In this document: piece by piece, positions 30,623-48,070 of the stretch | Layout of the letters: the number at the start of each line of letters is the position of its first letter | Numbering within the stretch: position 1 is the first letter of the stretch | NCBI RefSeq assembly: GCF_023516555.1 | Contig: NZ_JAMGBD010000001.1 | Coordinates: 496,001 to 560,000, forward strand | DNA length: 64,000 bases | Source of the DNA: Sphingomonas alba | GTDB lineage: Bacteria > Pseudomonadota > Alphaproteobacteria > Sphingomonadales > Sphingomonadaceae | Direction: 5' to 3' | Notes under the pieces: generated by a model | Databases searched by the model: none | Seen by the model: the letters and a program-made list of their open reading frames with translations, nothing else | What the model was told of the DNA's origin: nothing | Made by a program: the position numbers and the translations under genes

Positions 30623-30767
30623 CCGCGTCCCGCCCCAGCCTGTCGAGCCATTTACATCCATCCGAAGACTAGAATCTTCGTCCTGTCGATTTGAGGCGGG
30701 GTCGCGTTTGCGCCTTGTGAGCGTTCACGGCATGCAATACCGCTCCGGTCGGTCGACAGGGGTTTGC

Positions 30768-31304
30768 ATGCGGGTTCTGGCAACATCAGGACTTTTGGCA
30801 TTGGCCGTCGCATCCGCGGCGATCGCCGACTCGCCGTTCACGCATCGCGACGGAAGCGACGAGGGCGACTCAATCCTGCCGATCACGTCCTATCCATTGG
30901 GCCAGTCCCAGGTCGTCTCCGAGTCCATGGCGCGCAACGTCCAGATGTACTGGATCCAACGAGACATGTGCGAACAGATGGGCTGCCTGATCATCCGGAA
31001 CGAAGCGAAGAACTACAAAGTCGCGGACTTCAGGATCGAGCTGGTCGACCGTGACGGATCATCGCGCTGGAGCAGGAACCAGCTTCTCCATCCGCTGCTG
31101 CCGACGGAGAGCGTGGTCCGTCTCAAGGTGGCGCCGGCGGAAACCTGTGCGCGCCAGATCAAATTCATTCTCCAGCACCGCAAGACCAAGGAAAAGCTGG
31201 AGCTAGCGGGAACCACGGACTTCTGCCCGTCGCCTCATGCAACCAATATGATCCGCATCAACGTCAAGTCGCCGGAAGTCACCGTCGAGGACGTCAAAAA
31301 CTAG
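30768..31304 (+). CDS. Hypothetical exported protein
   Basis: This 178-residue protein begins at an ATG with AGGGG upstream; a frame 20 residues longer would place the signal peptide internally. The signal peptide runs MRVLATSGLLALAVASAAIA. The mature protein has four Cys (DMCEQMGC, ETCARQ, TDFCPS), consistent with two periplasmic disulfides, and a beta-rich pattern. I do not recognise the family. The 145 bases before it hold only a small hairpin (CGAAGA/TCTTCG, 30663-30680). It ends convergently with a DUF4136 gene, overlapping by four bases. Confidence 0.65.
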   Translation: MRVLATSGLLALAVASAAIADSPFTHRDGSDEGDSILPITSYPLGQSQVVSESMARNVQMYWIQRDMCEQMGCLIIRNEAKNYKVADFRIELVDRDGSSRWSRNQLLHPLLPTESVVRLKVAPAETCARQIKFILQHRKTKEKLELAGTTDFCPSPHATNMIRINVKSPEVTVEDVKN

Positions 31305-31876
31305 TAGCTTGTCCCCGTGCGGGCGGCCGTCTGTGGCGGGAATTGCGCCAGCACCTTGGCAACCGCCTCGTCCAGGCGGGAATAATCGACACGACCGGAA
31401 TAGCTGTCTCGCTTCACGACGCCGTGCCACGCCGGCTGGTGGGTCTTGCCGTCATAGACGTCGATGATGATGCTGCGCTCGGTCACGGTGTAGATGTCGG
31501 GGTAATAAGGCCCCCAGCCACCCCAACCTCCCCAGCCGCCCCAACCGGCCCAGCCACGCCAGCTTCCCCAGCCCGGGCCGACCCAGCCGTAGCCGTCATC
31601 GTCTGCCTCGATCCGGTCCCGCTCGCCGACCGTGAAGGTGATGGCGAAGTCGGCCTGGTCCGCCTGGGTATAGCCGCGGGCCGCCAGGTTGCGGTCGATC
31701 GAGTCCTTCACGCGGCGGAACATCAACGGGTTCATCCCGCGCGGAGCTTCGCTCGGAAGCCAGGTGTAAGTTCGGTAGGAAGCGATCGGGATCGCCGGGT
31801 CAAAATCGGTCTGGACGTTGTGATATTCACAAGCCGTCAGCAATAAAAACGCACCAACCAAGGGAAATGCGCGCAT
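31301..31876 (-). CDS. DUF4136 domain lipoprotein with WGG repeats
   Basis: This 191-residue protein has a signal peptide and lipobox (LLLTAC, Cys16). The pattern FDPAIPIASYRTYTWLP and the C-terminal SRLDEAVAKVLAQFPP fit the DUF4136 family of envelope lipoproteins of unknown role. Between about residues 100 and 130 it carries a low-complexity Trp-Gly-rich run with repeats of WGGWGG. It is convergent with the previous gene. Confidence 0.78.
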   Translation of the reverse strand: MRAFPLVGAFLLLTACEYHNVQTDFDPAIPIASYRTYTWLPSEAPRGMNPLMFRRVKDSIDRNLAARGYTQADQADFAITFTVGERDRIEADDDGYGWVGPGWGSWRGWAGWGGWGGWGGWGPYYPDIYTVTERSIIIDVYDGKTHQPAWHGVVKRDSYSGRVDYSRLDEAVAKVLAQFPPQTAARTGTSY

Positions 31877-31956
31877 AGCTACTCTCCCGCATGATGGCGA
31901 ACATGCGCCACCCCCTGCCCGGCCTCTATACAGGAATGCACCGACCGACGCGAGAC

Positions 31957-32178
31957 TCAGTCGCTGGAATCGCCGCCCTCTTCGAACTGCAGCAGGTCGC
32001 CCGGCTGGCAGCTTAGCGCTCGGCAGATCGCATCCAGGGTGGAGAAGCGGATTGCGCGGGCCTTGCCGGTCTTGAGGATCGAGAGGTTGGCAAGCGTGAG
32101 GTCGACCTTCTCGGCGAGCTCGGTCAATGTCATCCGCCGTTCGTGGAGCAGGTCGTCGAGCCGGACGCCGATAGCCAT
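31957..32178 (-). CDS. Small XRE-family HTH regulator
   Basis: This 73-residue protein is almost entirely a Cro/CI-type helix-turn-helix: LDDLLHERRMTLTELAEKVDLTLANLSILKTGKARAIRFSTLDAICRAL, ending with an acidic tail. Small regulators of this YozG-like type typically sit next to DUF2975 genes. The start codon shares a base with the stop of the DUF2975 gene (TGATG), so the two are translated together. It probably represses its own operon at the palindromes found upstream (32724-32783). Confidence 0.85.
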   Translation of the reverse strand: MAIGVRLDDLLHERRMTLTELAEKVDLTLANLSILKTGKARAIRFSTLDAICRALSCQPGDLLQFEEGGDSSD

Positions 32179-32699
32179 CAAACGGTCCCTTGCAGGTCGG
32201 CGCGCATCACGGTGCCTTCCGCAAAGACTCGGGCGAGAATGAAGGCGAAAAGGATGGCCACCCAGCTGCTGACAGAAAAACCGGCCTCCAGGTGGATGGG
32301 TTGCTCCGGTGTCGAGATAGCCTTGCCGATTGCCCCGATGATGATGCTGATGATCTGCATGCCGACCATGATCCAGGCAATCGCGTGCAGTCGGTAGGCA
32401 TTGGCGGCAACGAACGGATCGCCCTCGCGCACGGTGTCCACCATGGCGACAAGCCGCTTGAGTACCATGTAGTTGAACCCGATCACGACCAGGCCGAGCG
32501 CCGCAATCGCCTGCAGCCCCGGCAAGATGCCTCGGATGGGATGGCCTGTGGTTACTCCGAGGGCAGTCAGCGTCCATTCGTGAGCAAACAAGGTTCCGCA
32601 CAGGATTGCGAAGATGCAGATCCCCCAGACCCAGTTGAGAACGATGAGGATGCGCAGGACGACCGAAGCGATCGGCAGAGCAGCGGTTTGGTGTGACAT
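32178..32699 (-). CDS. DUF2975 four-helix membrane protein
   Basis: This 173-residue protein has four predicted membrane helices (about residues 10-35, 58-82, 105-128 and 145-165) and fits the DUF2975 family. Members are often encoded with a small XRE regulator, as here. The function is not established. The leader upstream of its ATG contains a plausible promoter overlapped by palindromic operators. Confidence 0.78.
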   Translation of the reverse strand: MSHQTAALPIASVVLRILIVLNWVWGICIFAILCGTLFAHEWTLTALGVTTGHPIRGILPGLQAIAALGLVVIGFNYMVLKRLVAMVDTVREGDPFVAANAYRLHAIAWIMVGMQIISIIIGAIGKAISTPEQPIHLEAGFSVSSWVAILFAFILARVFAEGTVMRADLQGTV

Positions 32700-32723
32700 C
32701 GGCTTGCCCCTAACGACTCGAAA

Positions 32724-32783
32724 TATCGATAAACGATAATCTCTTTATCGATATACGGCAAGGTAGATTATCGTTTTTCGATA
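32724..32783 (-). promoter_or_regulatory. Promoter with repeated TATCG-N5-CGATA operators
   Basis: Two identical-arm palindromes occur at 32724-32738 (spacer ATAAA) and 32769-32783 (spacer TTTTT), both TATCG-N5-CGATA. A compressed version, TATCGATA, lies between them at 32746-32753. On the minus strand TTGCCG (32756-32761) and TATCGT (32733-32738) are 17 bases apart and could be the -35 and -10 of the DUF2975-XRE operon, so the first palindrome covers the -10. Binding by the XRE protein is inferred. Confidence 0.6.
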
Positions 32784-32789
32784 TATCTC

Positions 32790-33236
32790 CTATGGCAACA
32801 CCGACAGGTCCGGTTTGACGAAATGGCGCCGTGCCTCGACCGAGAACAGCCGCTCGCCGCTGTAGAACCGCAGCGGCCAATCGCGCCGCCCCATGGGTGA
32901 GAGTAGCAGTTCGTTGACCAGTTCGTGGAGCGGTTCGTCAGGATCAGCTTCGGCCAAGAACAGCCGCACGCCATGCAGGAAGGTTCGCGTAATCGTCTCG
33001 TGATATCCCTGCGTGTCGTCGTTCACGCCGCCGACGCTCTCGTTATAGCGGCGGATGATGCCGGGCAGCTCACTGTCCAGGTCGATGTCGGTGCGGCGCG
33101 CTACCAAGTACGTAGACGCGGCAAGATGAGCTTCGTGGGTCCAATCCTCGCGCGGCAGGGTGCGCGCAAGCAGCCCCTCGCCGATGCGGACAATCGCATC
33201 GTCGCTGGTGAATAGACGGGGTCGGTATTCGGTCAT
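32790..33236 (-). CDS. Hypothetical cytosolic protein
   Basis: This 148-residue protein has no signal peptide or membrane segment. It is rich in helices, with conserved-looking blocks WTHEAHLAAS, ETITRTFLHG and SPMGRRDWPLRFYSGERLFS. I cannot assign a family or function. It lies 47 bases downstream of pckA on the same strand, so it may be on the pckA message, and it ends just before the DUF2975 operators. Confidence 0.6.
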   Translation of the reverse strand: MTEYRPRLFTSDDAIVRIGEGLLARTLPREDWTHEAHLAASTYLVARRTDIDLDSELPGIIRRYNESVGGVNDDTQGYHETITRTFLHGVRLFLAEADPDEPLHELVNELLLSPMGRRDWPLRFYSGERLFSVEARRHFVKPDLSVLP

Positions 33237-33283
33237 TTCGATCGGGCTTTCTCATTCGAGGCCCGATCGAGTGACCGGGCTAT

Positions 33284-34891
33284 TTAGGCGGTAGCGATGA
33301 CTTTCGGCGCGGCTTGTCGGACGCCTTCGTCGACGTGCTCAGCAAATTGCGCGAAGTTCTCCACGAACAGGTCGACGAGCTTGGCCGCCGTGCGGTCATA
33401 TTCGTCCTTGTCCGTCCATGTGTTGCGCGGGTCGAGGATGGCGGTATCGACACCCGGAACCGCAACAGGCACGTCGAAGCCGAAGTTCGGGTCCTTGCGG
33501 AACTCGACGTTCTTCAGGCTGCCGTCGAGCGCGGCGTTCAGTAGAGCGCGGGTCGCCTTGATCGGCATGCGGCTGCCGGTGCCGTACTTGCCACCGGTCC
33601 AGCCGGTGTTGACCAGCCAGCAGTCGGCATTGCCCTTCGCGATCCGCTCCTTGAGCAGGTTGCCGTAGACGCTCGGCGGACGTGGCATGAAGGCCGCGCC
33701 GAAGCAGGTGCTGAAGGTCGCGGTCGGCTCGGTCACACCGATTTCGGTCCCGGCGACCTTGGCGGTGTATCCCGACAGGAAGTGGTACATCGCCTGGTCG
33801 GGGGTCAGGCGCGAGATCGGGGGCAGCACGCCGAATGCATCGGCGGTCAGGAAGATGATCGTCGACGGCGGCGGACCGAGATTGTCCTTACTGGCGTTCG
33901 GGATGAACTCGATTGGATAGGCGCCACGCGTGTTCTCGGTCTTGCCGGCGTCATTGAAGTCGAGCTCCCGCGTCGTCTCGTCCATCGCCACATTCTCGAG
34001 GATCGTGCCGAACATCTTGGTCGTCGCGTAGATCTCCGGCTCACCCTCGGCGGACAGGTTGATCATCTTGGCGTAACAGCCGCCTTCGAAGTTGAAGACC
34101 GCCGTATCCGACCAGCCGTGCTCGTCGTCGCCGATCAGCGTCCGGCTGGCGTCCGCCGACAGGGTCGTCTTGCCGGTGCCCGACAGCCCGAAGAAAATCG
34201 CACTCTTGCCGTCTGCGCCGATATTGGCCGAACAGTGCATCGGCATCACACCCTGCGCGGGGAGCAGGAAGTTGAGCAGGCCGAACACGCCCTTCTTCAT
34301 CTCGCCCGAATATTCGGTGTTGCCGATCAGGATCAGCTTCTCCGTGAAATTCACCGCGATGACCGTGTCGCTGCGGCAGCCGTGCCGCTCAGGATCGGCC
34401 TTGAAGCTCGGCAGGTTGATGATCGTATATTCCGGAACATAGCCGGGAAGCTCGCTCGCGTCGGGGCGAACCAGCAGCGTGCGCACGAACAGATTATGCC
34501 ACGCCAACTGCGTGATGACACGGACGTTGACCCGATATTCCGGCTGGCTGCCGCCGTAGAGGTCGGCGACGAAGAGTTCTTCCTTGTCCTTCACCGCATC
34601 CAGGAAGTCGGCCTTGAGATTGGCCCAATGCTCGCCCGACATCTCCTGGTTGATCGCGCCCCAGTTGATGGTGTCCTCGGTGGTGACGTCGCGGACCACA
34701 TATTTGTCCTTGACGCTGCGACCGGTGAACTTGCCCGTATCGACAAGCAGCGCGCCGTCCTTGGTGAGCTCGCCCTCGCCGCGCGCGATCGCCTGTTCGA
34801 CCAGCGGTGCGGTCGTCAGGTTCCAGTGCAGCTTGGCCGAGGTCTCGATACCCTGTGCGTCCAAGCCGTGTCGCGAAACGCGCTCGCTCAA
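33284..34891 (-). CDS. pckA: Phosphoenolpyruvate carboxykinase (ATP)
   Basis: PckA converts oxaloacetate to phosphoenolpyruvate with ATP, the entry to gluconeogenesis. The 535-residue protein has the kinase loop [11 protein letters not shown] (residues 235-245), the following IGDDEHGW metal site and the ATP-type length. The start is a TTG at 34891; the nearby ATG at 34898 is in another frame, and no ATG/GTG lies upstream in frame before the leader hairpin. It has its own leader and promoter (34906-34987). Confidence 0.95.
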
Positions 34892-34905
34892 CTCTCATCC
34901 CCTTG

Positions 34906-34942
34906 AAAAATCAGACGGCGGCGGCTCTTCAGCCTGCCGCCG
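34906..34942 (-). terminator. Terminator-like hairpin in the pckA leader
   Basis: Read on the minus strand, CGGCGGC, a bulged A, GGCT, a GAAG loop, AGCC and GCCGCCG form an 11-base-pair stem, followed five bases later by TTTTT and then by the region before the pckA start. No minus-strand gene lies upstream that it could end, so it may control pckA read-through. The five-base gap before the T-run is not ideal for an intrinsic terminator. Confidence 0.45.
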
Positions 34943-34958
34943 TAGCTACCTTCCCGCG

Positions 34959-34987
34959 CCTATACCGATGGGGTGCCATTCGGTCAA
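34959..34987 (-). promoter_or_regulatory. pckA: Candidate sigma-70 promoter of pckA
   Basis: On the minus strand TTGACC (34982-34987) and TATAGG (34959-34964) are separated by exactly 17 bases. Transcription would begin near 34952, giving a leader of about 60 bases that contains the hairpin at 34916-34942. Confidence 0.55.
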
Positions 34988-35068
34988 AGGCACGGCCGCT
35001 TCCGTCCGGCAGTCCCGAAGCTTATTGTCTCATCCAATGCCCAATTGGGCGCGTTGCAGGCGGATTTG

Positions 35069-35605
35069 ATGGCCGAAGAGCAAATTCCCACTCCGCTGAA
35101 AGGGCAAGCGGAAGACGTCGCCCAGGCCTCGTCCCTGTGCGTCGACTGCGGACTGTGCTGCAATGGCTCGCTTCACGACGCGGCGGCTCTCGATGAGGAT
35201 GAGGTAGACGCCGCCCGGGCGGTTGGGCTGGATGTCATTCGCAACCTCGACAAGACCGGCTTCGCCTTCCCCTGCCCCAAGCTCGACGACACGCGCTGCA
35301 CGATCTTCGGCCAGCGCCCGAGGGTCTGCAGCCGGTTCATGTGCAAAGTACTGGTGGATCTCCGCGAGGACAGGCTGACGTTCGACGAAGCCACCGCCCA
35401 TGTCCGCGAGGCCCGGCGGTTGTATGCGGACATGATGGCGGAGCTACCGGACTACATCCCGTTGCGGGCGGCACGATTGCTGATCAGGAACTCCGCGGCG
35501 ACGCCTGCCCTGCAGCCGCTGGTCGACAAGGGCACCGTGTTTCAGCGCTACCTCGACGATCATTTCCGCAAGCCCAACGACGGGAAGATGATCGATGCGT
35601 CCTGA
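35069..35605 (+). CDS. YkgJ-type cysteine-cluster protein
   Basis: This 178-residue protein carries CVDCGLCC near residue 25, followed by further Cys in FPCPKL, TRCTIF and RVCSRFMC, which is the pattern of the YkgJ family of zinc- or iron-binding proteins. No biochemical role is established. I placed the start at 35069, because the sequence upstream looks non-coding. Its stop overlaps the start of the lasso-cluster nucleotidyltransferase by 11 bases, so it may be the first gene of that operon; membership in the pathway is uncertain. Confidence 0.75.
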   Translation: MAEEQIPTPLKGQAEDVAQASSLCVDCGLCCNGSLHDAAALDEDEVDAARAVGLDVIRNLDKTGFAFPCPKLDDTRCTIFGQRPRVCSRFMCKVLVDLREDRLTFDEATAHVREARRLYADMMAELPDYIPLRAARLLIRNSAATPALQPLVDKGTVFQRYLDDHFRKPNDGKMIDAS

Positions 35606-36737
35606 CGACGCGGACGTTCGAGACTTCCTGGCGGCCGCACTGCGCGGCGAGCAGGTGGTCTGGCCGGGCTCCGCAGAGCCGGGCGATGTTGCTGAAGCCG
35701 CGATCTACCAAGGCGTCGCCGGCCTGCTTATCGAGCGAGAACATGAGTTGGCATCATGGCCGCCGGAGACCATCGACCGAATGCGTACAGAGGCCCGCGG
35801 GCGCGCCATGTGGGAACTGCGGCACCGACTATTATTGGCCGAGTTGCTTGACTCGTTTGCGGCAGGCGGAATCGACTGCCTGGTCTTGAAGGGCACGGCG
35901 GTCGCGTACGACCTTTACGCCAATGCAGCGACCCGAATGCGCGGGGACACGGACTTGCTTGTTGCTGCAAAGGACGTGGCGAGTGCGAAGGAGGTGCTTT
36001 GCGCGTTGGGGTATATGGATCAGACCCTCGGCGGCGTGTCACCCGAGTTCGCCCTCCAGCAAACCTGGACACTCAAGTCGGCGTCGGGCGCGGCCCATTC
36101 GATCGACCTTCACTGGCAAGCGTTGAACGCGCCCTCTTTAAAGGGGCTGCTTCGCTTCCAGGACTGCCTCGCCCATTCGATAGGGTTGCCGCGTTTATCC
36201 CCGCACGCTCGAACCATGGATCGCGCGCGTCTGCTGGTTCACACCTGCCTGCACCGTGCTACCCAGCATAATGCGCCCTATGTCGTTGACGGGGCCACCT
36301 ATTATGATCCCGGACGGTTGATCTGGTTGTGGGATATCCACCTTCTTGGGAACGCCTTGAGCAGCCGGGAATGGCTGCAATTGTCCGCTCTCGCGAATGA
36401 CATGAAGGTTTCCGGTCCATGCCTCGAAGCACTGACGGCCGCGGCGTCGAGTTTCGGAACACCAATCCCCAACGAGACGGCGCGCGCTCTTGGCGAATCC
36501 GCAGTTGCCGACCGGACCAATCGATATTTCACACAATCGCACGCCGCCAGCCGCGCCATCCAGGACATTTGGGCGATCCCCGGCTGGCTGAGGAAGCTCA
36601 AATATGTGCAGTCGCGTATCGTCACTACGGAGCCGTTCCTGCGTGCCAAATATCCGCAACTGGCGGACCGGCCGCTGCCGTTGCTTTACGGCCGACGCCT
36701 GTTGGACGTCGTGCGGCGTAAATCGAATGCGGGCTGA
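35595..36737 (+). CDS. Nucleotidyltransferase-family protein of lasso cluster
   Basis: This 380-residue protein fits the NTP_transf_5 group. The nucleotidyltransferase core reads LKGTAVAYDLYANAATRMRGDTDLLV, where the Asp pair would hold the metal. Proteins of this group occur in lasso peptide clusters that also encode an HPr-kinase-like protein; in the pseudomycoidin system such an enzyme extends the phosphorylated tail. It lies three bases before the cyclase gene. The substrate here is inferred from context. Confidence 0.75.
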   Translation: MRPDDADVRDFLAAALRGEQVVWPGSAEPGDVAEAAIYQGVAGLLIEREHELASWPPETIDRMRTEARGRAMWELRHRLLLAELLDSFAAGGIDCLVLKGTAVAYDLYANAATRMRGDTDLLVAAKDVASAKEVLCALGYMDQTLGGVSPEFALQQTWTLKSASGAAHSIDLHWQALNAPSLKGLLRFQDCLAHSIGLPRLSPHARTMDRARLLVHTCLHRATQHNAPYVVDGATYYDPGRLIWLWDIHLLGNALSSREWLQLSALANDMKVSGPCLEALTAAASSFGTPIPNETARALGESAVADRTNRYFTQSHAASRAIQDIWAIPGWLRKLKYVQSRIVTTEPFLRAKYPQLADRPLPLLYGRRLLDVVRRKSNAG

Positions 36738-36740
36738 AGG

Positions 36741-38678
36741 ATGAGCGGCATTTTCGGAATCCTGACGCTGGATGGAAGTCAGCCCGAGCAGCGCGACCTG
36801 GACGCGATGGCGTCGGTCCTGACGACGCGGGGCCCTGACGGCACGCATTGCTGGCGAAATGGCAAGGTCGCGTTGGGCCATACCTTGCTGGCGACGACCC
36901 CCGAGGCGCTCGTCGAGGTCTTGCCCCTGACCGACGCCGAAACAGGCTGCACGATCACGGCGGATTGCCGGCTCGACAATCGCGAAGAGTTGATACCGAA
37001 GCTTGGCATAGACGGCGTTGAACGCGTGATCGGCGACGGTGAGATTATCCTGCGGGCCTATCTGAAATGGGGTGAAGAATGCCCAGCCAAACTACTCGGC
37101 GACTTCGCCTTCGCCATCTGGGATCCGCGCATCTCGCAACTCTTTTGCGCCCGCGACCACATGGGGATGCGGCAGCTGATTTATTATCATCAGCCCGGCG
37201 AGCTGTTCGCTTTCGCGACCGAAGCGGAGGCAGTGCTTGCGCACGCCGCGGTGCCACGCAGGATCAACGAGGGTCGCATCGCCGACTTCCTCGACGATCT
37301 CGAAGGCCGCGACCTGAGCTCAACATTCTTCGAAGATGTTCTGAGGCTCCCGCCCGCCCATTGCCTGATGGTGAGCGGAAATGGCGCCAACCTGCATCGC
37401 TTTTGGACGCTGGGACCCGGCCCAGCCCTGAAGCCGGAATCCGACGACGCTTTCGCGAAAACATTCCTGAATATCTTCGAAGAGGCCGTTCGTTGCCGTC
37501 TGCGCAGCCCTGGGCCCGTCGGATCCATGCTCTCCGGAGGCATGGATTCAGGCTCCGTCGCGGCCATGGCGGCAAGGCTTCTGGAGGACAGCGGACGAGC
37601 TCCCTTGCAATCGTTTTCCGCAGTCGGGCCCGATCCCGAGGCCTGTATCGAGACACGCACGATCCTGTCGGCAGCCGGGATCTCTGGGATAAAGGCGACC
37701 CTTCTCGACCATGCGGACATCGCCGCCGACATCGAGTCACTCAAGGATCTTCCAGAAGGTGGCGAACCGTTTGATTACCACATGACCCTGATCCGGGCTG
37801 TCTATCTCGCGGCCCATGATCGGGGATTGAAGATCATGCTGGACGGCGTCGCCGGCGATATCGCCTTGAACGCGGGCAATCGCGTTGTTCAGCTGTTGCG
37901 CGAAGGAGAAATCTTGTCGGCGATCGGCGAGGGCCGAGCCGAAGCACGGTTCTGGGGCTCGAGATGGCCTTTCTGGAAGACGTTCCCGCAAGCCGTTTGG
38001 AGCGCGTGGGCCCCGCGTGCCGTCCGCGAGTACAGGCGGCGAGCGCGCTCATGGCTGCGCGACCGGCGCATCGGTCGCAAAGGCATGGTGTCGGGCTCTT
38101 TCGCTGAAGAGATCGACTTGCGAGCTCGAAGGGAGAGTTACCGGTCCCACTCGTCCGATGAGCCAGAATCCATCACCCAAAAGCGCGCCCGATCCATATT
38201 GCATCCGCATCTCGTGGCGGCGCGAGAGCGATATGATCGTGTGGCCTCGGCCCTAGGAATTGAGCCGCGCGATCCCTTCATGGACGTGCGCTTGCTGCAA
38301 TTCTGCCTGTCGCTCCCGCCTGAGCAGCTTCAGTCCAGGGGTTGGCCCAAGGCTATCCTGCGCAGAGCGATGCGAGGCCTCCTGCCCGAACAAGTTCTCT
38401 GGAGGTACGGCAAGGAGCATTTGGGCTGGGCATTTACGACGGCATTGTTCGAGCGATGGGCGGGTTGGTCCGAAGAACTCGAAATAAGGCCATCCCCGAT
38501 AGGCCGTTACCTCACTCCGAACGCGATGGATGAAAGCAACCATCCGCGAGGGAAAGGGTTAGACATGGAACAAAAAATTAAGCTATTCTTTCTGCAGAGG
38601 TGGCTGGGGCGAGCCCAAACCGATCGCTCTGGGACCGCGCATAATTCGGGGATTGAGAATGTCGAAGAAAATGCCTGA
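36741..38678 (+). CDS. Lasso peptide cyclase (asparagine synthetase-like, C protein)
   Basis: The C protein activates the side chain of a core Glu/Asp as an acyl-adenylate and closes the macrolactam. The 645-residue protein has an AsnB-like N-terminal domain, but begins MSGIFGI: the catalytic Cys of glutaminases is replaced by Ser, so it cannot release ammonia from glutamine, as is usual for lasso cyclases. The synthetase domain keeps the ATP-binding SGGMDS (residues 265-270). The gene overlaps the precursor start by 20 bases. Confidence 0.9.
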   Translation: MSGIFGILTLDGSQPEQRDLDAMASVLTTRGPDGTHCWRNGKVALGHTLLATTPEALVEVLPLTDAETGCTITADCRLDNREELIPKLGIDGVERVIGDGEIILRAYLKWGEECPAKLLGDFAFAIWDPRISQLFCARDHMGMRQLIYYHQPGELFAFATEAEAVLAHAAVPRRINEGRIADFLDDLEGRDLSSTFFEDVLRLPPAHCLMVSGNGANLHRFWTLGPGPALKPESDDAFAKTFLNIFEEAVRCRLRSPGPVGSMLSGGMDSGSVAAMAARLLEDSGRAPLQSFSAVGPDPEACIETRTILSAAGISGIKATLLDHADIAADIESLKDLPEGGEPFDYHMTLIRAVYLAAHDRGLKIMLDGVAGDIALNAGNRVVQLLREGEILSAIGEGRAEARFWGSRWPFWKTFPQAVWSAWAPRAVREYRRRARSWLRDRRIGRKGMVSGSFAEEIDLRARRESYRSHSSDEPESITQKRARSILHPHLVAARERYDRVASALGIEPRDPFMDVRLLQFCLSLPPEQLQSRGWPKAILRRAMRGLLPEQVLWRYGKEHLGWAFTTALFERWAGWSEELEIRPSPIGRYLTPNAMDESNHPRGKGLDMEQKIKLFFLQRWLGRAQTDRSGTAHNSGIENVEENA

Positions 38679-38811
38679 ACAGTCGCAAGCCGTTGCCCGC
38701 AAGCCGTACTCTCGACCCGGTCTCACGGTTTACGGCGGCATGGCTGCTTTGACGGCTTCAGGCACCCAACCGCCCACCGAAAATGGCGGTCAGCCGCAAA
38801 AGCATCCATAG
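38659..38811 (+). CDS. Lasso peptide precursor (A), 50 residues
   Basis: This frame encodes a basic leader with the full recognition motif YxxPxLxxxGxxxxxTx (residues 17-33: Tyr17, Pro20, Leu22, Gly26, Thr32). Cleavage after Ala33, with Thr at -2, leaves the core SGTQPPTENGGQPQKHP. Glu8 would bond to the Ser1 amine to give an eight-residue ring with a nine-residue loop and tail. Cleavage one residue later would give Gly1-Glu7, a seven-residue ring, which is less likely. The ATG lies inside the cyclase gene; Met5 at 38671 is a possible alternative start. Confidence 0.88.
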   Translation: MSKKMPEQSQAVARKPYSRPGLTVYGGMAALTASGTQPPTENGGQPQKHP

Positions 38812-38840
38812 TAGGCGCCCCCAAGCTTAGCGTCGAAAAG

Positions 38841-39737
38841 GTGATTGACGTTTTGCGAAGCGGTCTCCCTGGATGGAGTCTGCGTAGGGAAAATGCCGAT
38901 ACGGATCTCGCCAAGCACCTAATCCAAGACCCGGCCTGGATCGACGAACCTGGCTTGTTGCATGTGTTTGCCATCTGCCACGACAGAGAACCTCGCTATT
39001 ACCTGCGGTTTTGCGACGAAATTGGGGTCGACGTTCGATTTGGCAGCCGAACCATTGTTGAACACGCTCTTCGGCCGGATATCCCGCAGTCGACCCGCGA
39101 CCACTTTCTCGCGGATCAGGTGCTCCCGCGCATTCTGGGCCACAGTGGAGCGTTAGTACTTCATGCTGCGGCCGTGCGCATCGGAAATGGTGCCGTTCTC
39201 CTCTTGGGGAAATCAGGATCCGGCAAGTCCACGCTGGCCGCAAGCTTTGCGCAAGCCGGCCATGGCTTGCTTGGCGACGATGCCCTGATCATTTCGTGGC
39301 GCGGGCAAGTTCCCCTCGCAAGGACGGTCTATCCCAGTCTGCGGCTTTTTCCAGATTCGCTTGGCGCGCTGTTCGCCGAGGAGACATTGACGACTTCTGT
39401 TGCCCATTACACTCCCAAGCTCCGTGTAAATGTGCCCTTGAAAGACCTGGACGAAAGCGGGCGCTTGCCTGTGCACGCAATGTTCGCGCTGGGAACTGCC
39501 TCTCGGGACAACGAGATTCTCATCAGGCCAAAGACCATCGCTAACGGTTGCATGACCTTAATCGAGAACAGTTTCGTGCTGGATCCCACGGACCCAGGTC
39601 GCGCGCCTTCTCGCCTCGAGGCCGCAAGCAGACTTTCCGGCCAGGTCCCGACTTTCGACCTTTACTATCCCCGTGCCTATTCCTGGCTGCCCGATGTCCG
39701 GGCTGCGATGGTTGAGGCTCTGGGCAAAAACACCTGA
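38841..39737 (+). CDS. HPr-kinase-like lasso peptide kinase (K)
   Basis: This 298-residue protein has the HprK-type loop GKSGSGKST (residues 123-131) followed by HGLLGDDALII, the Walker B-like acidic pair. Homologues in lasso clusters such as paeninodin phosphorylate the side chain of a C-terminal Ser. The start is a GTG, with a GAAAAG stretch upstream, 29 bases after the precursor stop. The core here ends in Pro, so the phosphorylated residue is not clear; Ser1, Thr3 and Thr7 are the hydroxyl candidates. Confidence 0.82.
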   Translation: MIDVLRSGLPGWSLRRENADTDLAKHLIQDPAWIDEPGLLHVFAICHDREPRYYLRFCDEIGVDVRFGSRTIVEHALRPDIPQSTRDHFLADQVLPRILGHSGALVLHAAAVRIGNGAVLLLGKSGSGKSTLAASFAQAGHGLLGDDALIISWRGQVPLARTVYPSLRLFPDSLGALFAEETLTTSVAHYTPKLRVNVPLKDLDESGRLPVHAMFALGTASRDNEILIRPKTIANGCMTLIENSFVLDPTDPGRAPSRLEAASRLSGQVPTFDLYYPRAYSWLPDVRAAMVEALGKNT

Positions 39738-39757
39738 TATCATTGGACTGCAGCGCC

Positions 39758-40915
39758 ATGGGACTTCCGACGGGTTATAATATTCTTGGCTACGGCCTTA
39801 TGGTTACGTCGGAGCCGCGCATGTCGGCCTACGCTGACGCGTTGCGAAAGGCTGTTACGCCTGGATGTACTGTGTTCGACATCGGTGCGGGACAGGGAAT
39901 TTTTTCTATCCTGGCCTGCAAATATGGTGCCGGTGCCGTGGTGGCGATCGATCCCGACGACACGATTGCGCTGGCCCGGGAGCTTGCGGCCAACAATGGC
40001 TGTGCCGACCGGATCACATTTTTCCAGGGACTGTCGACCGATTTTCAACCGTCAGTCAGGGCGGATGTGATCGTATCGGACATCAGGGGCGGACTTCCGT
40101 TATTCGAACATCATATTCCGTCCATTGTAGACGCACGCGAACGGCTCCTGCGCCGCGGCGGCACGCTGATCCCGATGCGCGACACCATCCGCATTGCCCT
40201 TGCGGAGAATACGAAGGCCTACGAACTCCACGAAAGGCCATGGTTGGAAAACAAGTTCGATATCGACCTGACTGCAGGGCATCGCTTCGCCTGCAACGTC
40301 AGGACGAAAGCAGAAATGGCACCTGCCGACCTTTTGTCTGAACTGCAGGATTTGCTCACGATCGACTATCGCCATGTGACGGATACCGATGCCACTGCAT
40401 TCGCAACGCTTTCCGCGACCAGGTCTGGAACTGCCCACGGCATGAATCTGTCATTCCAATCGGAACTCGCGGAGGGCATCTCCTTTTCGACCGAGCCGGG
40501 TGTGCCGGAGAACGTCTATGGCCAGAATTTCTTTCCATTCCAACGACCTGTGGAGCTGGCGGCCGGCGACCACGTTGACGTCGAGATTAGCGCACGCCTG
40601 GTCGATGGTTCCTATATCTGGAACTGGAACAGCGAATTCCGCCGACAGGGGCAGAGCGGGGCCCCGTTGAAGTTTCGGCAGTCCAGTTTCCTTGGCAAGA
40701 TATACTCGCCCCAGTCGCTTGCCCGCCAGTCCAGGCAATTCATCCCCCCGGCTTCCGAGGCTCAGCAAATCGATCAGCTTTGCTTATCGCTGGTCGATGG
40801 AAAGCGATCACTTGAGGCAATTGCTGGCGAGCTAAATGCTAAGTTCCCCAACCGATTCACATCGGCGTCGGACGCCCTTAATCACGTCGCGAATTTGACC
40901 GCGCGTTATCGCTAG
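39758..40915 (+). CDS. PRMT-like methyltransferase with C-terminal PqqD-like domain
   Basis: This 385-residue protein has SAM motif I VFDIGAGQGIF (residues 39-49), an acidic post-II strand (VAIDPDD), and a loop SDIRGGLPLFEHH in the place of the PRMT double-E loop, although its first acid is Asp. A beta-rich middle part follows. The last 50 residues (LCLSLVDGKRSLEAIAGEL onward) look like a PqqD winged helix, the leader-binding RRE fold. The ATG at 39758 was preferred to a TTG at 39743. It could methylate the lasso peptide; the core has no Arg. Confidence 0.75.
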   Translation: MGLPTGYNILGYGLMVTSEPRMSAYADALRKAVTPGCTVFDIGAGQGIFSILACKYGAGAVVAIDPDDTIALARELAANNGCADRITFFQGLSTDFQPSVRADVIVSDIRGGLPLFEHHIPSIVDARERLLRRGGTLIPMRDTIRIALAENTKAYELHERPWLENKFDIDLTAGHRFACNVRTKAEMAPADLLSELQDLLTIDYRHVTDTDATAFATLSATRSGTAHGMNLSFQSELAEGISFSTEPGVPENVYGQNFFPFQRPVELAAGDHVDVEISARLVDGSYIWNWNSEFRRQGQSGAPLKFRQSSFLGKIYSPQSLARQSRQFIPPASEAQQIDQLCLSLVDGKRSLEAIAGELNAKFPNRFTSASDALNHVANLTARYR

Positions 40916-40928
40916 CTAGAACAGTCCC

Positions 40929-41207
40929 ATGGCCGATATTTTCGACGAGCACCTTGTTCCGAGCACCGATGCAGTCGAAAGCGCCGTCGGCGACGAAACG
41001 GTCATTCTCCACCTGAAAAGCGGCACCTATTTCGGGCTCGACGCCGTCGGTACGCGTATCTGGGCGATGGTTAAGGATGGCGTTGCGACCGCCGACATCG
41101 CGAAATGCCTGACCGAAGAGTTCGATGTTACCCAAGCGATCGCTGAAGCGGATGCCCGGCGATTCATCGGAGAGCTGAAGGCGAACGACATCCTCATCAA
41201 TGGTTAG
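40929..41207 (+). CDS. PqqD-family leader-binding protein (lasso B1)
   Basis: This 92-residue protein has the PqqD layout: VILHLKSGTYFGLDAVGTRIWAMV, then a winged-helix with AKCLTEEFDVTQAIAEADA and ELKANDILING. B1 proteins bind the precursor leader, recognising the Tyr-Pro motif, and deliver it to the B2 peptidase. The stop overlaps the B2 start, so the two are made together, as expected for the split B1/B2 system. Confidence 0.9.
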   Translation: MADIFDEHLVPSTDAVESAVGDETVILHLKSGTYFGLDAVGTRIWAMVKDGVATADIAKCLTEEFDVTQAIAEADARRFIGELKANDILING

Positions 41208-41592
41208 GCGCCGCCTCGACCTGCCGACCGTTCTCGATCTCATTCGCGCGAGTTGGGAATTGGCGCTCGCCCGCAAGCGGCTCGATAGCGTCGATGCCAA
41301 GGCTCTGGTCGTGGCCGGTGATAAACCGGCGGGCCCAGAACAGGTCGACCGCCTGGTTTTCGCAGTAAGCGCAATGGGCGCCCGGGTCCCGTGGCGGTCG
41401 GATTGCCTGGTTCAGGCGCTCGCCGCCCAGCATTGGCTGGCGAGCATGGGGATCGGCAGCAGCATTCACTTGGGGGTGAAGCCGTCAGAGGCTCCCATCG
41501 ACGCGCATGCGTGGCTGAAGGTCGGCGACCGGATCCTTCTTGGCGGCGATGTCGCCGACTATTCGGAGTTCCCGCTGCACGACGAGCGCTGA
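41200..41592 (+). CDS. Lasso leader peptidase (B2, transglutaminase-like)
   Basis: This 130-residue protein is a cysteine peptidase of the transglutaminase fold that cuts the leader from the core. The catalytic Cys lies in PWRSDCLVQAL, the His in DAHAWLKVGD and an Asp in GGDVADYSEF. The start overlaps the B1 stop. It ends the operon; the next gene, thiE, is on the other strand after three bases. Confidence 0.9.
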   Translation: MVRRRLDLPTVLDLIRASWELALARKRLDSVDAKALVVAGDKPAGPEQVDRLVFAVSAMGARVPWRSDCLVQALAAQHWLASMGIGSSIHLGVKPSEAPIDAHAWLKVGDRILLGGDVADYSEFPLHDER

Positions 41593-41594
41593 AC

Positions 41595-42263
41595 TTACTT
41601 CAGCGCGAAGACCTCGTTGAACCGCGCGACCGCCGCGCCCGGATCGTCCTTCCCCCATACCGCCTGGCAGACGGCGATGAAGTCGGCGCCTGCATCGAGC
41701 AAAGGCCGGACATTGTCCGGCGTGATGCCGCCGATGGCGACGCACGGGATTTCGAACAGGCTTGCCCACCAGCTCAATAGTTCCGGCTTCGGCCGATAGT
41801 TCGAAGGCTTGGTCGTCGTCTCGTAGAACGCACCGAAGGCAACATAGTCGCAGCCCGCCTCTCCCGCTTCCATCGCCAGGTGGCGGCTGTCGTGACAGGT
41901 GCGGCCGATCTGGGCCGCTGGCCCGAGCAGGGCCCTCGCCTCACGCGGATCGCCGTCGCTCTGGCCCAGATGCACGCCGTCGGCGCCTAGCCGCTTGGCC
42001 AGCGCCATGCTGTCGTTGACGATGAAGGCGCAATCGTGATCGGCGCAAATGCGCTGCAGCGGCTCGGCCAGCCGCGCCAATTCATGCTCGTTCTTGTCCT
42101 TCACCCGCATCTGGAAGGCGGCGACGGGGCCACCCTCCAGCGCTGCTTTCAGCCGGTTGGGAAATCCGCCTCCGACGTCCTGCGGGCTGATCAGGTACAG
42201 GCTCGCGGGCTGCGTGCGCCTCGGCGGCGGGAATTGCGTCAGGTCGACTTCGTCTTCATTCAT
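41595..42263 (-). CDS. thiE: Thiamine-phosphate synthase
   Basis: ThiE joins hydroxymethylpyrimidine diphosphate and thiazole phosphate. The 222-residue TIM barrel shows QMRVKDK (pyrophosphate-binding Gln and Lys), FIVNDSMALAKRLGADGVHLGQSD, and CVAIGGITPDNV with the phosphate loop. I start it at 42263, MNEDEVDL, to avoid the overlap with the divergent lipoprotein gene; 12 more residues are open upstream. No TPP-riboswitch is visible, and there is little room for one (35 bases between starts). Confidence 0.9.
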   Translation of the reverse strand: MNEDEVDLTQFPPPRRTQPASLYLISPQDVGGGFPNRLKAALEGGPVAAFQMRVKDKNEHELARLAEPLQRICADHDCAFIVNDSMALAKRLGADGVHLGQSDGDPREARALLGPAAQIGRTCHDSRHLAMEAGEAGCDYVAFGAFYETTTKPSNYRPKPELLSWWASLFEIPCVAIGGITPDNVRPLLDAGADFIAVCQAVWGKDDPGAAVARFNEVFALK

Positions 42264-42298
42264 GCCGCGCTCATTAGCCGAGGGCCAGCATCCGTCCA

Positions 42299-42685
42299 AT
42301 GAAAGCCATACTTCCCCTGCTCATCTTGGCGCTCAGCGCCTGCGCCGCCACCGTCAACGGCCCGGTCGTCGACGGCGGCCCGATCCGCCAGGACGGACTT
42401 GCCATGCTCGGCCAGCCGACGCGGGTCGGCAGTCTGGTCGTCACCCCGATGAAGCTGGTGGAGGACAGCCGCTGCCCGGTGAACGCGCGCTGCGTCTGGG
42501 CCGGCCGGGCCGTCGTCACCACGCGGATTGACGGCACGGGATGGCGCGAGACCGCGAACCTCGAGCTAGGCAAGCCCTACGCCACGCACAATCTCAGCGT
42601 GCAGCTCAGCTCGGTGCAACCGGAGAAGGTCGCTGGCCAGCAACCGCCGGCCCAGGCCTATGTCTTCGGCTATACGGGCGGCTAA
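42299..42685 (+). CDS. Hypothetical lipoprotein
   Basis: This 128-residue protein has a signal peptide and lipobox (LALSAC, Cys15). The mature part contains DSRCPVNARCVWAGRA, a Cys pair framing a Trp-Gly turn found in several small uncharacterised exported proteins, and a beta-rich tail. Function is unknown. It ends convergently with the aldolase gene, overlapping by four bases. Confidence 0.7.
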   Translation: MKAILPLLILALSACAATVNGPVVDGGPIRQDGLAMLGQPTRVGSLVVTPMKLVEDSRCPVNARCVWAGRAVVTTRIDGTGWRETANLELGKPYATHNLSVQLSSVQPEKVAGQQPPAQAYVFGYTGG

Positions 42686-43575
42686 GCGACCGAGGCGCCG
42701 TGGATTTCGTCGATGGCCGTGCCGAGGGTGCGGTCGAACTCGGCGTCGTCCTGGTCGTGGCGCAAATCTGACAGCAGCGCTCGGCTGAAGCTGGCGATCA
42801 TGCCGGGGTTCTTGGCCAGCTCACGGACGGCATCGGCGCGGCTGAAGCCACCCGACAGCGCCACCACGCGCAGCACCTTCGGGTGATTGACCAGCGGTGT
42901 GAACAGACCGGCCTCGGCCGGGATCGACAGCTTAAGCATCACCTGTTCGCTGGCCGGGACCGATTCCAGGTTCTTCAGGATCTCGTCGAGCAGGATGCGG
43001 TCGGCGGCGGCCCGCTCCGTGCTCTTGATATTCACTTCCGGCTCGATGATCGGGACCATGCCGTGGCCGAGCACCTGGCGCGCGACGTCGAACTGCTGCT
43101 TGACGACAGCGGCGATGCCTTCGGGATTGGCGAGGTTGATGACCGAGCGCTCCTTTGTGCCGAACACGCCGAGCGTCTTCGCCTTGGTGAGCAAAGCGTC
43201 GAGCTCCGGCATCGGCTTCATCATCTGGACGCCATGCGCCTCATCTTCGAGGCCCTTGTCGATCTTGATGAAGGGCACGACGCCCTGGTCGATCAGCGCC
43301 TTCGGGACCGGCTTGCCGTCGATGTCGCCATCCATTGTCCGCTCGAACAAAATCGCGCCGATGACCTTGCCGCTGCCGAACGACGGCGAAGAAATGATTC
43401 GCGAACGCATCTGGTGGATGAGGCCGAACATTTCCTCCTCACCCGACCATTCGTCGCCGCGATAGCCATACCCTTGCAGCGCCTTGGGGGTCGAACCGCC
43501 GCTCTGGTCCAGCGCCGCGATGAAGCCCTGGCCGTTCGCGATCTTCTCGCGCATCTCGCTATTCGTCATTGTCAT
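42682..43575 (-). CDS. Class I fructose-bisphosphate aldolase
   Basis: This roughly 297-residue protein cleaves fructose 1,6-bisphosphate through a Schiff base. It matches the class I family: FIAALDQSGGSTPKAL near the N-terminus, GVVPFIKIDKGLE, the PIIEPEVNI strand and VMLKLSIP, which carries the Schiff-base Lys. AGGAC precedes the ATG at 43575; a second ATG lies six bases later. It is the last gene of the tkt-gap-pgk run, just after pgk. Confidence 0.92.
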   Translation of the reverse strand: MTMTNSEMREKIANGQGFIAALDQSGGSTPKALQGYGYRGDEWSGEEEMFGLIHQMRSRIISSPSFGSGKVIGAILFERTMDGDIDGKPVPKALIDQGVVPFIKIDKGLEDEAHGVQMMKPMPELDALLTKAKTLGVFGTKERSVINLANPEGIAAVVKQQFDVARQVLGHGMVPIIEPEVNIKSTERAAADRILLDEILKNLESVPASEQVMLKLSIPAEAGLFTPLVNHPKVLRVVALSGGFSRADAVRELAKNPGMIASFSRALLSDLRHDQDDAEFDRTLGTAIDEIHGASVA

Positions 43576-43580
43576 CAGTC

Positions 43581-44786
43581 CTATGCTTGTTCGAGGGCGG
43601 CGACGCCGGGGAGCGTCCGCCCTTCCATCCATTCCAGGAAAGCGCCGCCGGCGGTCGACACGAAGGTGAAATCGTCCGTCACTCCAGCCTGGTTCAATGC
43701 CGCCACCGTGTCGCCGCCACCGGCGACCGAGACGAGGCTGCCGTCCTGCGTCAACGCAGCCGCCGTCTTGGCCAGCGCGACGGTCGCCGCGTCGAACGGC
43801 GGCGTTTCGAACGCGCCTAGCGGACCGTTCCAGACCAATGTCCGGCAGGTTTTCAACGCATCGGCGAGCGCCTCAACGGCGGCCGGGCCGATGTCGAGGA
43901 TCATCTCGTCCGCGGCGACCTCATGCACATTGCAGGTGCGTAGGCTCGGCGGATTGGCCGCGAATTCCTTGGCCACGACGACATCATAAGGCAAATGGAT
44001 CGTGCAGCCGGCGGCATCCGCGCGTTCGAAAATGCTCTCCGCTTCACCGAGCAAGTCCTTCTCGCAGAGGGACTTCCCGACGTTGACCCCGCGTGCGGCC
44101 AGGAAGGTGTTGGCCATTCCGCCGCCGATGATCAGGTGATCGACCTTGCCGACGAGGTGGCCGAGCACGGCGAGCTTGGTCGAGACTTTGGCGCCGCCCA
44201 CGACGGCGGCGACCGGGCGCTCGGGGTTACCAAGCGCGCGCTCCAACGCCTGCAGTTCAGCCTCCATCGCCCGTCCCGCGAAAGCCGGCAGCAGATGCGC
44301 AACTCCCTCAGTCGAGGCATGCGCGCGATGCGCCGCGGAGAATGCATCGTTGACGTAATAGTCGCCGAGCGCCGCCATTCCCTTGGCCAACTCTGGGTCG
44401 TTTTTCTCTTCGCCGGCATGGAAGCGCGTATTCTCAAGCACGCCGATATTACTCGGCAGCATGACCGTGACCGCCCGAGCCGCTTCCGGCCCCTGGCAAT
44501 CCTCGATGAAGCGCACGGACCGCCCGCTCAGACGGTGAATCGGCAGCACCAGTTGTGCCGTCGACATGTCCGGACGCGTCTCGCCCTTCGGCCGTCCGAA
44601 GTGCGAGAGCAACAGGACGATGGCGCCGTGGTCGCTCAATTCGAGCACCGTCGGCAGCATCGCCCGCAGCCTTGTGTCGTCGGTGACCTTTGCGCCGTCC
44701 ATCGGCACGTTGAGGTCCACGCGAACCAGCACCTTCTTGCCGGTCAATTCCTCCGGCAGGTCGTCGAGGGTCTTGAAGCCGGGCAC
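43581..44786 (-). CDS. pgk: Phosphoglycerate kinase
   Basis: Pgk makes ATP from 1,3-bisphosphoglycerate. The 401-residue protein shows the N-terminal [14 protein letters not shown] (substrate Arg/Asp), the hinge region LALERALG...[17 protein letters not shown], and the nucleotide-binding WNGPLGAFE and [12 protein letters not shown]. It starts at a GTG directly after the gap stop with no gap, so the two are tightly coupled. Confidence 0.95.
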
Positions 44787-45794
44787 TTAGCCGAGCTTGG
44801 CCATCGCCCGCGCGGTGTCGACCATGCGGTTCGAGAAGCCCCATTCATTGTCATACCAGCTGACGACGCGGACCAACTTGCCTTCGATGACCGCGGTTTC
44901 GAGGCTGTCGACCGTCGAGCTCGCTGGATTGTGGTTGAGGTCGATCGAAACCAGCGGCTCGTCGGTATATTCGAGGATGCCCTTCAGGGGGCCGCTCTCG
45001 GACGCCGCCTTCAGCGCCGCGTTGATCTCTTCCTTGCTCGTGTCGCGGCCTGGAGTGAAGGTCAGGTCGACCAGGCTGACGTTCGGGGTGGGAACGCGGA
45101 CGGCCGAGCCATCGAGCTTGCCCTTCAGCTCCGGAAGGACTTCGCCGACGGCGCGTGCGGCGCCAGTGGTCGTCGGGATCATCGACATCCCGGCAGCGCG
45201 TGCACGGCGCATGTCCGGGTGGATCTGGTCGAGGATCTTCTGGTCGTTGGTGTAGGCGTGGATCGTCGTCATCAGCCCGCGCTCGATGCCGACCAGATCG
45301 TTCAACACTTTGGCGACTGGCGCCAGGCAGTTGGTCGTGCAGCTGGCGTTGGAAACGATCCGGTGATCTCCGGTCAGCTTGTCGTGGTTGACGCCATAGA
45401 CGACAGTGAGGTCCGCACCCTTGGCCGGCGCCGAGATGAGGACACGCTTGGCGCCGGCGTCGAGATGCTTCTGACCGCCTTCACGGTCGGTGAAGAAACC
45501 GGTGCATTCCAGAGCGATTTCGACGCCGAGACCCTTGTGCGGCAGCTTGGCCGGGTCGCGCTCGGCGGTGACGGCGATGCGCTTGCCGTTCACGGTGAAG
45601 GAGCTGTCGTCATAGCTGATCTCGCCGGGGAACCGCCCGTGGACGCTGTCGCGCTTGAACAGCAGGGCGTTCGACTTGGCGTCGGCGAGGTCGTTGATAG
45701 CGACCAACTCGAGCCCGCAGTCCGGCCGTTCCAGAATGGCCCGGGCGACGAGGCGGCCGATGCGGCCGAAACCGTTGATGGCGACTTTGGTCAT
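44787..45794 (-). CDS. gap: Glyceraldehyde-3-phosphate dehydrogenase
   Basis: Gap oxidises glyceraldehyde 3-phosphate with NAD. The 335-residue protein has the Rossmann NGFGRIGRL (residues 7-15) and VAINDLAD (the Asp favours NAD over NADP), the catalytic Cys152 in SNASCTTN and [21 protein letters not shown] later. The ATG overlaps the tkt stop (ATGA), so it is coupled to tkt, and pgk begins immediately after its stop. Confidence 0.95.
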
Positions 45795-47779: not shown

Positions 47780-47899
47780 TGGGTCTCCGTCGCGAAGGGC
47801 CGGCCGAAAGGATTACGCCAGCCGATGCGTGGCCCTATTGTCGGTGAGCCGAGCAGCGTCAACCTTGCCCCGTGATTACAATCCTTTTAGCGAGGGCAA

Positions 47900-48070
47900 A
47901 TGAGCGACGAAGGTCTAGTTTCAGCACTCGACCGCGCAGATCGCGCGATGGAGCGCATCGAGCGGGCTCTTTCTCGCCTGAAGGCGGGCAGCGGCCGTGA
48001 CGAACGGCTGCGTGCCAGAGTGCGCGATGTCGTCGCCGAGCTCGACTCCATCATCGAAGGGGCACGCTGA
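47900..48070 (+). CDS. Small coiled-coil protein before zapA (56 residues)
   Basis: This short frame encodes MSDEGLVSALDRADRAM followed by a heptad-like, Arg/Glu/Leu-rich helix through DSIIEGAR. Its stop shares a base with the zapA start (TGATG), which argues that it is a real, translated gene. Its position and coiled-coil look fit a partner or helper of ZapA. I do not recognise a named family. Confidence 0.65.
   Translation: MSDEGLVSALDRADRAMERIERALSRLKAGSGRDERLRARVRDVVAELDSIIEGAR

Follow-up and report, generated by a model that had tools for sequence, protein, structure and literature searches.

A seven-gene cluster of Sphingomonas alba encodes, we conclude with good confidence, a 17-residue lasso peptide, which is probably tailored. 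The cluster lies in the stretch of 64,000 nucleotides analysed here (contig NZ_JAMGBD010000001.1, positions 496,001 to 560,000; 'the window', in whose coordinates positions are given below) and consists of same-strand genes that overlap or are closely spaced, in the order N, C, A, K, M, B1, B2, with all reading frames open. A lasso gene within a well-defined family is ordinary in principle; what is unusual is the tailoring set, which comprises an HPr-kinase-like peptide kinase (K), a nucleotidyltransferase-like protein (N) and a methyltransferase with the fold of protein arginine methyltransferases, or PRMTs (M). Published work is cited by accession and for the excerpts available, and other loci and genomes are denoted by L and G numbers.

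The precursor family and the predicted ring

The open reading frame at 38659-38811 (+) translates to MSKKMPEQSQAVARKPYSRPGLTVYGGMAALTASGTQPPTENGGQPQKHP followed by a stop codon (50 aa). Its leader carries the motif YSRPGLTVYGGMAALTA, in which Tyr occupies position -17, Pro -14, Leu -12 and Thr -2. This is a real precursor gene, A, with the exact YxxPxLxxxGxxxxxTx pattern, as an initial annotation of the window had claimed and as translation confirms; a six-frame search of the window finds the full pattern a single time, and none of 60 dinucleotide-preserving shuffles contains it. The motif by itself would prove little, and the assignment of A as a lasso-type precursor, which we regard as almost certain, draws on the motif together with the surrounding cluster. 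Counting back by the reported leader spacing (Tyr -17, Pro -14, Leu -12; PMC10368454) places the predicted cut after Thr-Ala, so that the core begins with Ser1; experimentally observed core start residues include both Ser and Ala (PMC12670498). The predicted core (38758-38808) comprises the segment SGTQPPTE, from Ser1 to Glu8, and the tail NGGQPQKHP, ending at Pro17, and Glu8 (38779-38781) is its sole acidic residue. The features are as follows.

35595-36737 (+): N, PF14907 nucleotidyltransferase-like gene (Pfam E-value 6.9e-31, 108 bits, cut-off 31.2)
36741-38678 (+): C, lasso cyclase, asparagine-synthetase-like, with an LSGGMDSG motif (Pfam Asn_synthase; NF033535 just under its cut-off)
38648-38652 (+): GGGGA, Shine-Dalgarno-like site for A, spotted by eye in the sequence
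38659-38811 (+): A, lasso precursor gene; leader 38659-38757 (33 aa), core 38758-38808 (17 aa), stop 38809-38811
38758-38781 (+): predicted macrolactam ring Ser1-Glu8 (Ser/Thr3 and Glu8 in 15/15 cores)
38800-38808 (+): Lys15-His16-Pro17, predicted steric lock, counterpart of the RRP/RRA/RKL end of the family
38841-39737 (+): K, HPr-kinase-like peptide kinase with a complete H-G-G-G-K-S-D-D set
39743-40915 (+): M, PRMT-fold methyltransferase with a C-terminal PqqD-like helical region (by homology and model)
40929-41207 (+): B1, discrete PqqD-type recognition element for ribosomally synthesised and post-translationally modified peptides, RiPPs (Pfam PqqD 60.1 bits, cut-off 23.4)
41200-41592 (+): B2, transglutaminase-like leader peptidase with DC and AHAW stretches (NF033537 67.5 bits, cut-off 33)

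Relatives were sought with M as the query because it is the most distinctive gene of the cluster. A search at the level of the order returned the cluster itself and three others (M 45-47% identical), and a search within one genus added eight. The gene order in each of these 11 relatives is N, D, C, A, K, M, B1, B2, where D is an ABC exporter, and precursors of the same kind sit between C and K in all 11. Three of the clusters (L123, L124, L125) carry two A genes each, giving 14 precursors and, with that of the window, 15 distinct cores, which fall into nine groups at 60% ungapped identity. The precursors of the relatives were found by the pattern Y..P.[LIVMF]..[YFW]G, outside which Thr(-2), Ala(-1) and the core all lie; one chance match that lay away from the cluster in L054 was not counted, and the L054 precursor, first read by hand, was confirmed among the close relatives.

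Every one of the 15 precursors has Thr at -2 and Ala at -1. Residue 1 of the core is Ala in eight, Gly in five and Ser in two, residue 2 is always Gly and residue 3 is Ser in 12 and Thr in three; residue 4 is Gly in 11 cores, and positions 5-7 are variable. Residue 8 is Glu in 15/15 and each core's only acid, and a sole acid at position 8 in all nine groups has a chance probability of about 3e-12 under random placement with kinship ignored. Because a small residue 1, Gly2, Ser/Thr3 and Glu8 as the sole acid recur in every core, an eight-residue ring from Ser1 to Glu8 is very likely. The small first residue and the single acid at 8 thereby support the ring that the initial annotation had proposed, and its wider claim of a lasso peptide finds support in C, B1, B2 and the Thr-Ala of all 15 precursors.

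C matches the Pfam Asn_synthase model, B1 resembles TbiB1 (E 2e-16) and B2 is the subject of one above-cut-off match in the source genome; the cyclase, kinase and peptidase motifs are intact, and the start of A overlaps the 3' end of C by 20 nt. An Rfam scan of 34000-43000 gave no match. Searching the source genome for an AtxE2-type isopeptidase returned sub-cut-off matches only (best 54 of 400 bits), as it did in 11 of 14 control genomes.

Predicted tailoring of the peptide

K matches HPr kinase models under their cut-offs, and its similarity to HPr kinases of solved structure is weak (best E 0.012). Across an alignment of four kinases its residues H108, G123, G126, G128, K129, S130, D146 and D147 do not vary, and the set is intact in 12/12 clusters. 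It corresponds to H148-G163-G166-G168-K169-S170-D186-D187 of BsfK minus exactly 40 positions (PMC10368454). BsfK phosphorylates Ser3 of its core, accepts Thr3 and not Tyr3, is stimulated by B1 and does not use the leaderless core as a substrate (PMC10368454). In view of this catalytic set, of Ser or Thr at position 3 in 15/15 cores and of a C-terminal Ser or Thr in none (the window core ends in Pro), Thr3 (38764-38766) is the predicted site, and K probably phosphorylates it, a claim made by analogy. C-terminal phosphorylation of the PadeK/SyanK/PsmK type was considered and rejected on the same count of 0/15. The penultimate leader residue differs from the model system: BsfA has Ile at -2, BsfA variants with other residues there being still phosphorylated at least in part but cut poorly or not at all (PMC10368454), whereas Thr occupies -2 in all 15 precursors, that of the window included, rather than the Ile or Val of the BsfK-type group.

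N belongs to PF14907, as, presumably, does the nucleotidyltransferase PsmN of the pseudomycoidin cluster. Because PsmN has been linked to a hexose on phospho-Ser (PMC9266682, PMC8498205), we tentatively propose by analogy that N might add a hexose to the Thr3 phosphate, and we give this less credence than the phosphorylation itself.

By sequence and by predicted fold, M is a PRMT homologue. A phmmer comparison of M with PRMT2 gives E 2.2e-19, and with a profile built from 11 M proteins the E-value for PRMT homology falls to 9.4e-45. The AlphaFold2 model of M (11 sequences, mean pLDDT 86.8) matches yeast Hmt1, PRMT1, PRMT2, PRMT6 and PRMT8, with target-normalised TM-scores of up to 0.88 over some 310-330 alignment columns among the matches listed. 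Two motifs of PRMTs are known as the double-E loop and THW. Where the double-E loop has its first Glu, all 12 clusters have Asp, the second place holds Glu in seven, Gln in four and Gly in one, and no THW motif is present in the aligned stretch of any of the 12. A His stands two places past the second Glu position in 12/12, and in 9/12 another His directly precedes it. Residues 346-388 form three helices in the model and match the PqqD model TIGR03859 at E 1.6e-4 (21.5 bits, under the cut-off of 46).

That M acts on the A peptide we consider somewhat more probable than the contrary. Methylation of an Arg near the C-terminus, after the manner of its PRMT relatives, would be in keeping with the homology and fold of M and with the Arg that 13 of the 15 cores have among their last three residues. 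The window and L054 cores have no Arg, yet both clusters retain M, and the double-E loop is altered and THW absent throughout the 12 clusters, so that we judge arginine methylation unlikely, although it is the likeliest of the alternatives considered here. Given its distribution, Arg may be the usual substrate of M or merely part of the lock. A conceivable reading, to which we give rather less than an even chance, is that the family has carried a PRMT-fold enzyme past arginine catalysis to another acceptor, such as the C-terminal carboxylate, phospho-Thr3 or Lys/His, the product then being doubly tailored, with a phosphate in the ring and, here, no exporter.

Two of the regions fetched around more remote M relatives bear on arginine separately. 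In L061 and L065 the PRMT-like protein retains both Glu of the double-E loop, and precursors of the type W.KPE..SF...AEGISYRP.DG.SNLT (L061:7779-7934 (+) and L065:7272-7469 (+)) lie near asparagine-synthetase-like genes. The two precursors have one Arg in common, and they possibly give an arginine-methylated RiPP.

Starting from the gene, the cluster and the conserved cut site, residue 3, Glu8 and basic tail end observed here, we infer every chemical step and its order as follows. B1 would bind the YxxPxL leader of A, and K would act before leader removal, phosphorylating Thr3 within what is to become the ring; N may then add a hexose to this phosphate. M, possibly steered by the PqqD-like region at its C-terminus, would methylate a site on A. 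B2 would cut the leader after Thr-Ala, and C would close the ring around the threaded tail by linking the amine of Ser1 with the side chain of Glu8, Lys15 and His16 holding the thread. The initial annotation mentions neither the tailoring enzymes nor the lack of an exporter; because of these enzymes, a search for the core mass minus one water, as it put forward, may miss the product.

Alternatives and genomic context

Several observations weigh against this interpretation, or narrow what it can claim. The peptide itself is a prediction from the genes, and the residue 3 rule is carried over by analogy from BsfA, with its Ile at -2. No NCBIfam lasso model is passed by the window precursor (NF033521 and NF033528 were tried): only NF033528 matches, with 15.4 bits against a cut-off of 33, and the best E-value from a lasso model is 0.014. 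C scores 507.1 bits (E 8e-152) against NF033535, under the cut-off of 525, and B1 scores 54.6 bits against NF033536, under the cut-off of 80. Of ten other precursors tested, three pass NF033521, the lasso leader model (cut-off 19): L059 with 25.5 bits, L066 with 21.9 and the close relative L053, barely, with 19.3. The 11 relative clusters share a single genus and are hence not independent, and the Y-P-L part of their leaders is conserved by construction, as it was a condition of the search. The invariant Gly2 is, on conservation alone, compatible with a seven-residue Gly-Glu ring.

M relatives are also patchily distributed, in genome draws that overlap between order, family, class and genus. 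Matches were found in 45 of 396 genomes of the order at 1e-15, only four of them, including its own, falling below 1e-100; 397 genomes of the family yielded two at 1e-50 (its own and the already known G224), 385 genomes of the class yielded its own alone at 1e-40, and 114 genomes of the genus of G392 yielded 11, three of them already known. In plasmid records the M relatives were all remote (13 records, with coverage below 80% in each). The window precursor has no convincing match in 36 genomes of its own genus (best E 0.005, with an internal stop), and the letters of its core did not occur in a search of the open-access literature.

The wider neighbourhood of M is mixed. For the 44 other genomes of the order with an M match, the regions of 14 were fetched, and in nine of these a precursor of the lasso type lies close to C, K, M and B1. 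Only M was found in L057, L058 and L064, and L061 and L065 have C-like genes with the other precursor type described above. Six of the nine (L056, L059, L060, L062, L063, L066; the distant class) would close at Asp and were left out of the 15, as was the Terriglobia contig L052, which has Ser1 and Thr3, no acid at 7-9 and Asp10 as its sole acid.

These excluded loci have features of their own. The distant-class cores have TG|GS at the cut and could close at Asp8 or Asp9, and their kinases have GxSRxGKT and E-D instead of GxxGxGKS and D-D (6/6). At L052:5644-5826 (+), the core SITKTHVTADAGTYPGNTKT would require a ten-residue ring, and lies in a cluster with an M relative, a kinase-like gene, a PF14907 gene and a JmjC/cupin-like gene.

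The exporter deserves separate consideration. D lies between N and C in 11/11 close relatives, whereas N and C are 3 bp apart in the window, within which D has no match. Orthologues of the L053 D are found in L054 and L055 (70% and 77%) and in the eight newer clusters (62-97%), while a relative's D has 18 matches elsewhere in the source genome, the best three at 31-33% identity and partial ones at up to 36%. These observations, which count against a functional cluster, are what would be expected if it were decaying, the exporter lost and the product no longer made; so is the change of an RR tail end into KH. All seven reading frames are nonetheless open with the enzyme motifs intact, and, of the six distant-class regions, three have D (L059, L063, L066) while in the others (L056, L060, L062) it was not seen; excerpts of PMC10368454 describe the mmv cluster as lacking it too. 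Its loss is thus not unique, and we consider decay improbable.

The G+C content in 1-kb windows is 57-60% at 38000-41499, 60-64% upstream (30000-38499) and 64-67% downstream (41000-47999), and the cluster looks like a patchy acquisition, as far as can be inferred. An empty-site check drew on 38 same-genus genomes with a thiE match, of which 29 loci were examined. FBA adjoins thiE in 28/29, and B2, N or PEPCK lies within 1.5 kb in 0/29; no clean empty site is shown among them, as in the seven loci compared the other flank of thiE is not constant, and nothing there matches the window. Upstream, a gene for a CxxCxxCC putative zinc/iron-chelating protein (34973-35605 (+)) overlaps the start of N by 11 nt, and is matched in six of 61 same-genus genomes including its own (E 1e-20).

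The tail raises the question of threading. The initial annotation had remarked on the absence of an aromatic plug, which is right, yet this is the rule of the family, as L054, with Phe17, has the one tail of 15 that contains Phe, Tyr or Trp. In 14/15 cores at least one of the three C-terminal residues is basic, and positions -3 and -2 from the C-terminus are both basic in 12/15, KHP being the window's version; position -2 is Arg in ten, Lys in three, His in one and Met in one, and the last residue is Pro in nine, Ala in three, Leu in two and Ile in one. Because the basic tail end is conserved and aromatics are rare, Lys15 and/or His16 are likely to be the lock that holds the thread. The ring might instead form without threading, giving a branched-cyclic peptide, as the plugless tail and the most hydrophilic core of the 15 (mean -2.02) could suggest. 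The same lack of aromatics in the other tails, and the retention of a basic residue that resembles a conserved lock, make this a still poorer account than decay.

Least probable of all is a cut one residue later, which would turn the invariant Gly2 and Glu8 into an equally invariant Gly1-Glu7 pair and give a seven-residue ring, as xanthomonins reportedly have. It would move Thr to -3 and Tyr to -18, contrary to the reported spacing (PMC10368454), displace Ser/Thr from position 3 and leave unexplained why the preceding residue is only Ala, Gly or Ser in 15/15, all known ring starters (PMC12670498).

A further kind of lasso-type precursor was noticed, two examples of which lie in distant-class regions. 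In L131-L139 (L131 being L062:6428-6787 (+) and L135 being L056:8410-8769 (-)), a core of 15-23 residues runs straight into a segment that starts with SD.R.K[EQ]N; in the two tested, this segment matches the Pfam Peptidase_S74 endosialidase chaperone (E 4e-8 and 9e-7). Peptidase_S74 cleaves itself. The fused gene is present in 9/40 genomes of one genus; there were three further matches, and in two of them, L140 and L142, the reading frame ends as soon as the core does. A search of the two cluster regions L056 and L062 for B2 at E 0.01 yielded none. 'Lasso peptide' did not occur alongside S74 terms among the open-access matches listed.

Comparison with known systems

Precedent for an unusual first residue comes from caulonodins IV-VII, which Zimmermann reportedly described in 2014 as having Ser or Ala at position 1, unusual N-terminal residues and a defined precursor motif. 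They are said to differ from the present family in a Glu9 ring, an intact B protein and the lack of a kinase or methyltransferase.

The cluster resembles bsf of Bradymonas sediminis, which likewise has A, B1, B2, C, an HPr-kinase-like K and a nucleotidyltransferase N, and shares YxxPxL at -17 to -12, Ser/Thr at core position 3, the absence of a C-terminal Ser and the kinase residues with their spacing (PMC10368454). It departs from bsf in having Thr(-2), Ser1-Glu8, a PRMT-fold M and no D, where bsf has Ile(-2), a Gly1-Asp8 ring, an exporter D and, among the seven genes given in the excerpts, no methyltransferase (PMC10368454). Pseudomycoidin and paeninodin clusters also contain a kinase, and that of paeninodin a split B1/B2; their modification falls on a C-terminal Ser, a position held by Ser or Thr in 0/15 cores of this family (PMC9266682, PMC8498205, PMC5067487).

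M shares a Rossmann methyltransferase domain and a beta-barrel with eukaryotic PRMTs (PRMT1, PRMT2, PRMT8, yeast Hmt1), and differs from them in its altered double-E loop, the lack of THW and the additional C-terminal PqqD-like helices. StspM and LasF are likewise methyltransferases of lasso clusters; StspM, whose model was based on mitomycin 7-O-methyltransferase, has the C-terminal carboxyl as its target, with no PRMT fold mentioned in the excerpts (PMC9266682). Group II lasso clusters from soil metagenomes have a split B1/B2, some with phosphotransferase or methyltransferase genes; the type of methyltransferase is left unspecified in the available text, so that overlap with the family of the window is possible, and a product is given only for a Group I cluster (PMC12670498). 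We found no PRMT-fold tailoring enzyme in lasso clusters in the open-access literature, subscription papers and supplements being outside the scope of the search, and the same literature yielded no paper on bacterial PRMTs. The terms 'arginine methyltransferase', 'ribosomal protein L11 methyltransferase' and 'PRMT' did not occur among the open-access lasso matches listed, and the lone match to 'lasso peptide' with 'arginine methyltransferase' was a preprint titled on a ribosome-targeting antimycobacterial.

The 15 natural cores, with their fixed ring size and mostly aromatic-free tails, offer a test set for the locking of an eight-residue ring by Arg, Lys or His. Within the open-access literature searched, and as far as the excerpts go, phosphorylation in the ring has been shown for one lasso system, that of BsfK; the family described here would be a second and separate one, distinguished by Thr(-2) and Glu8.

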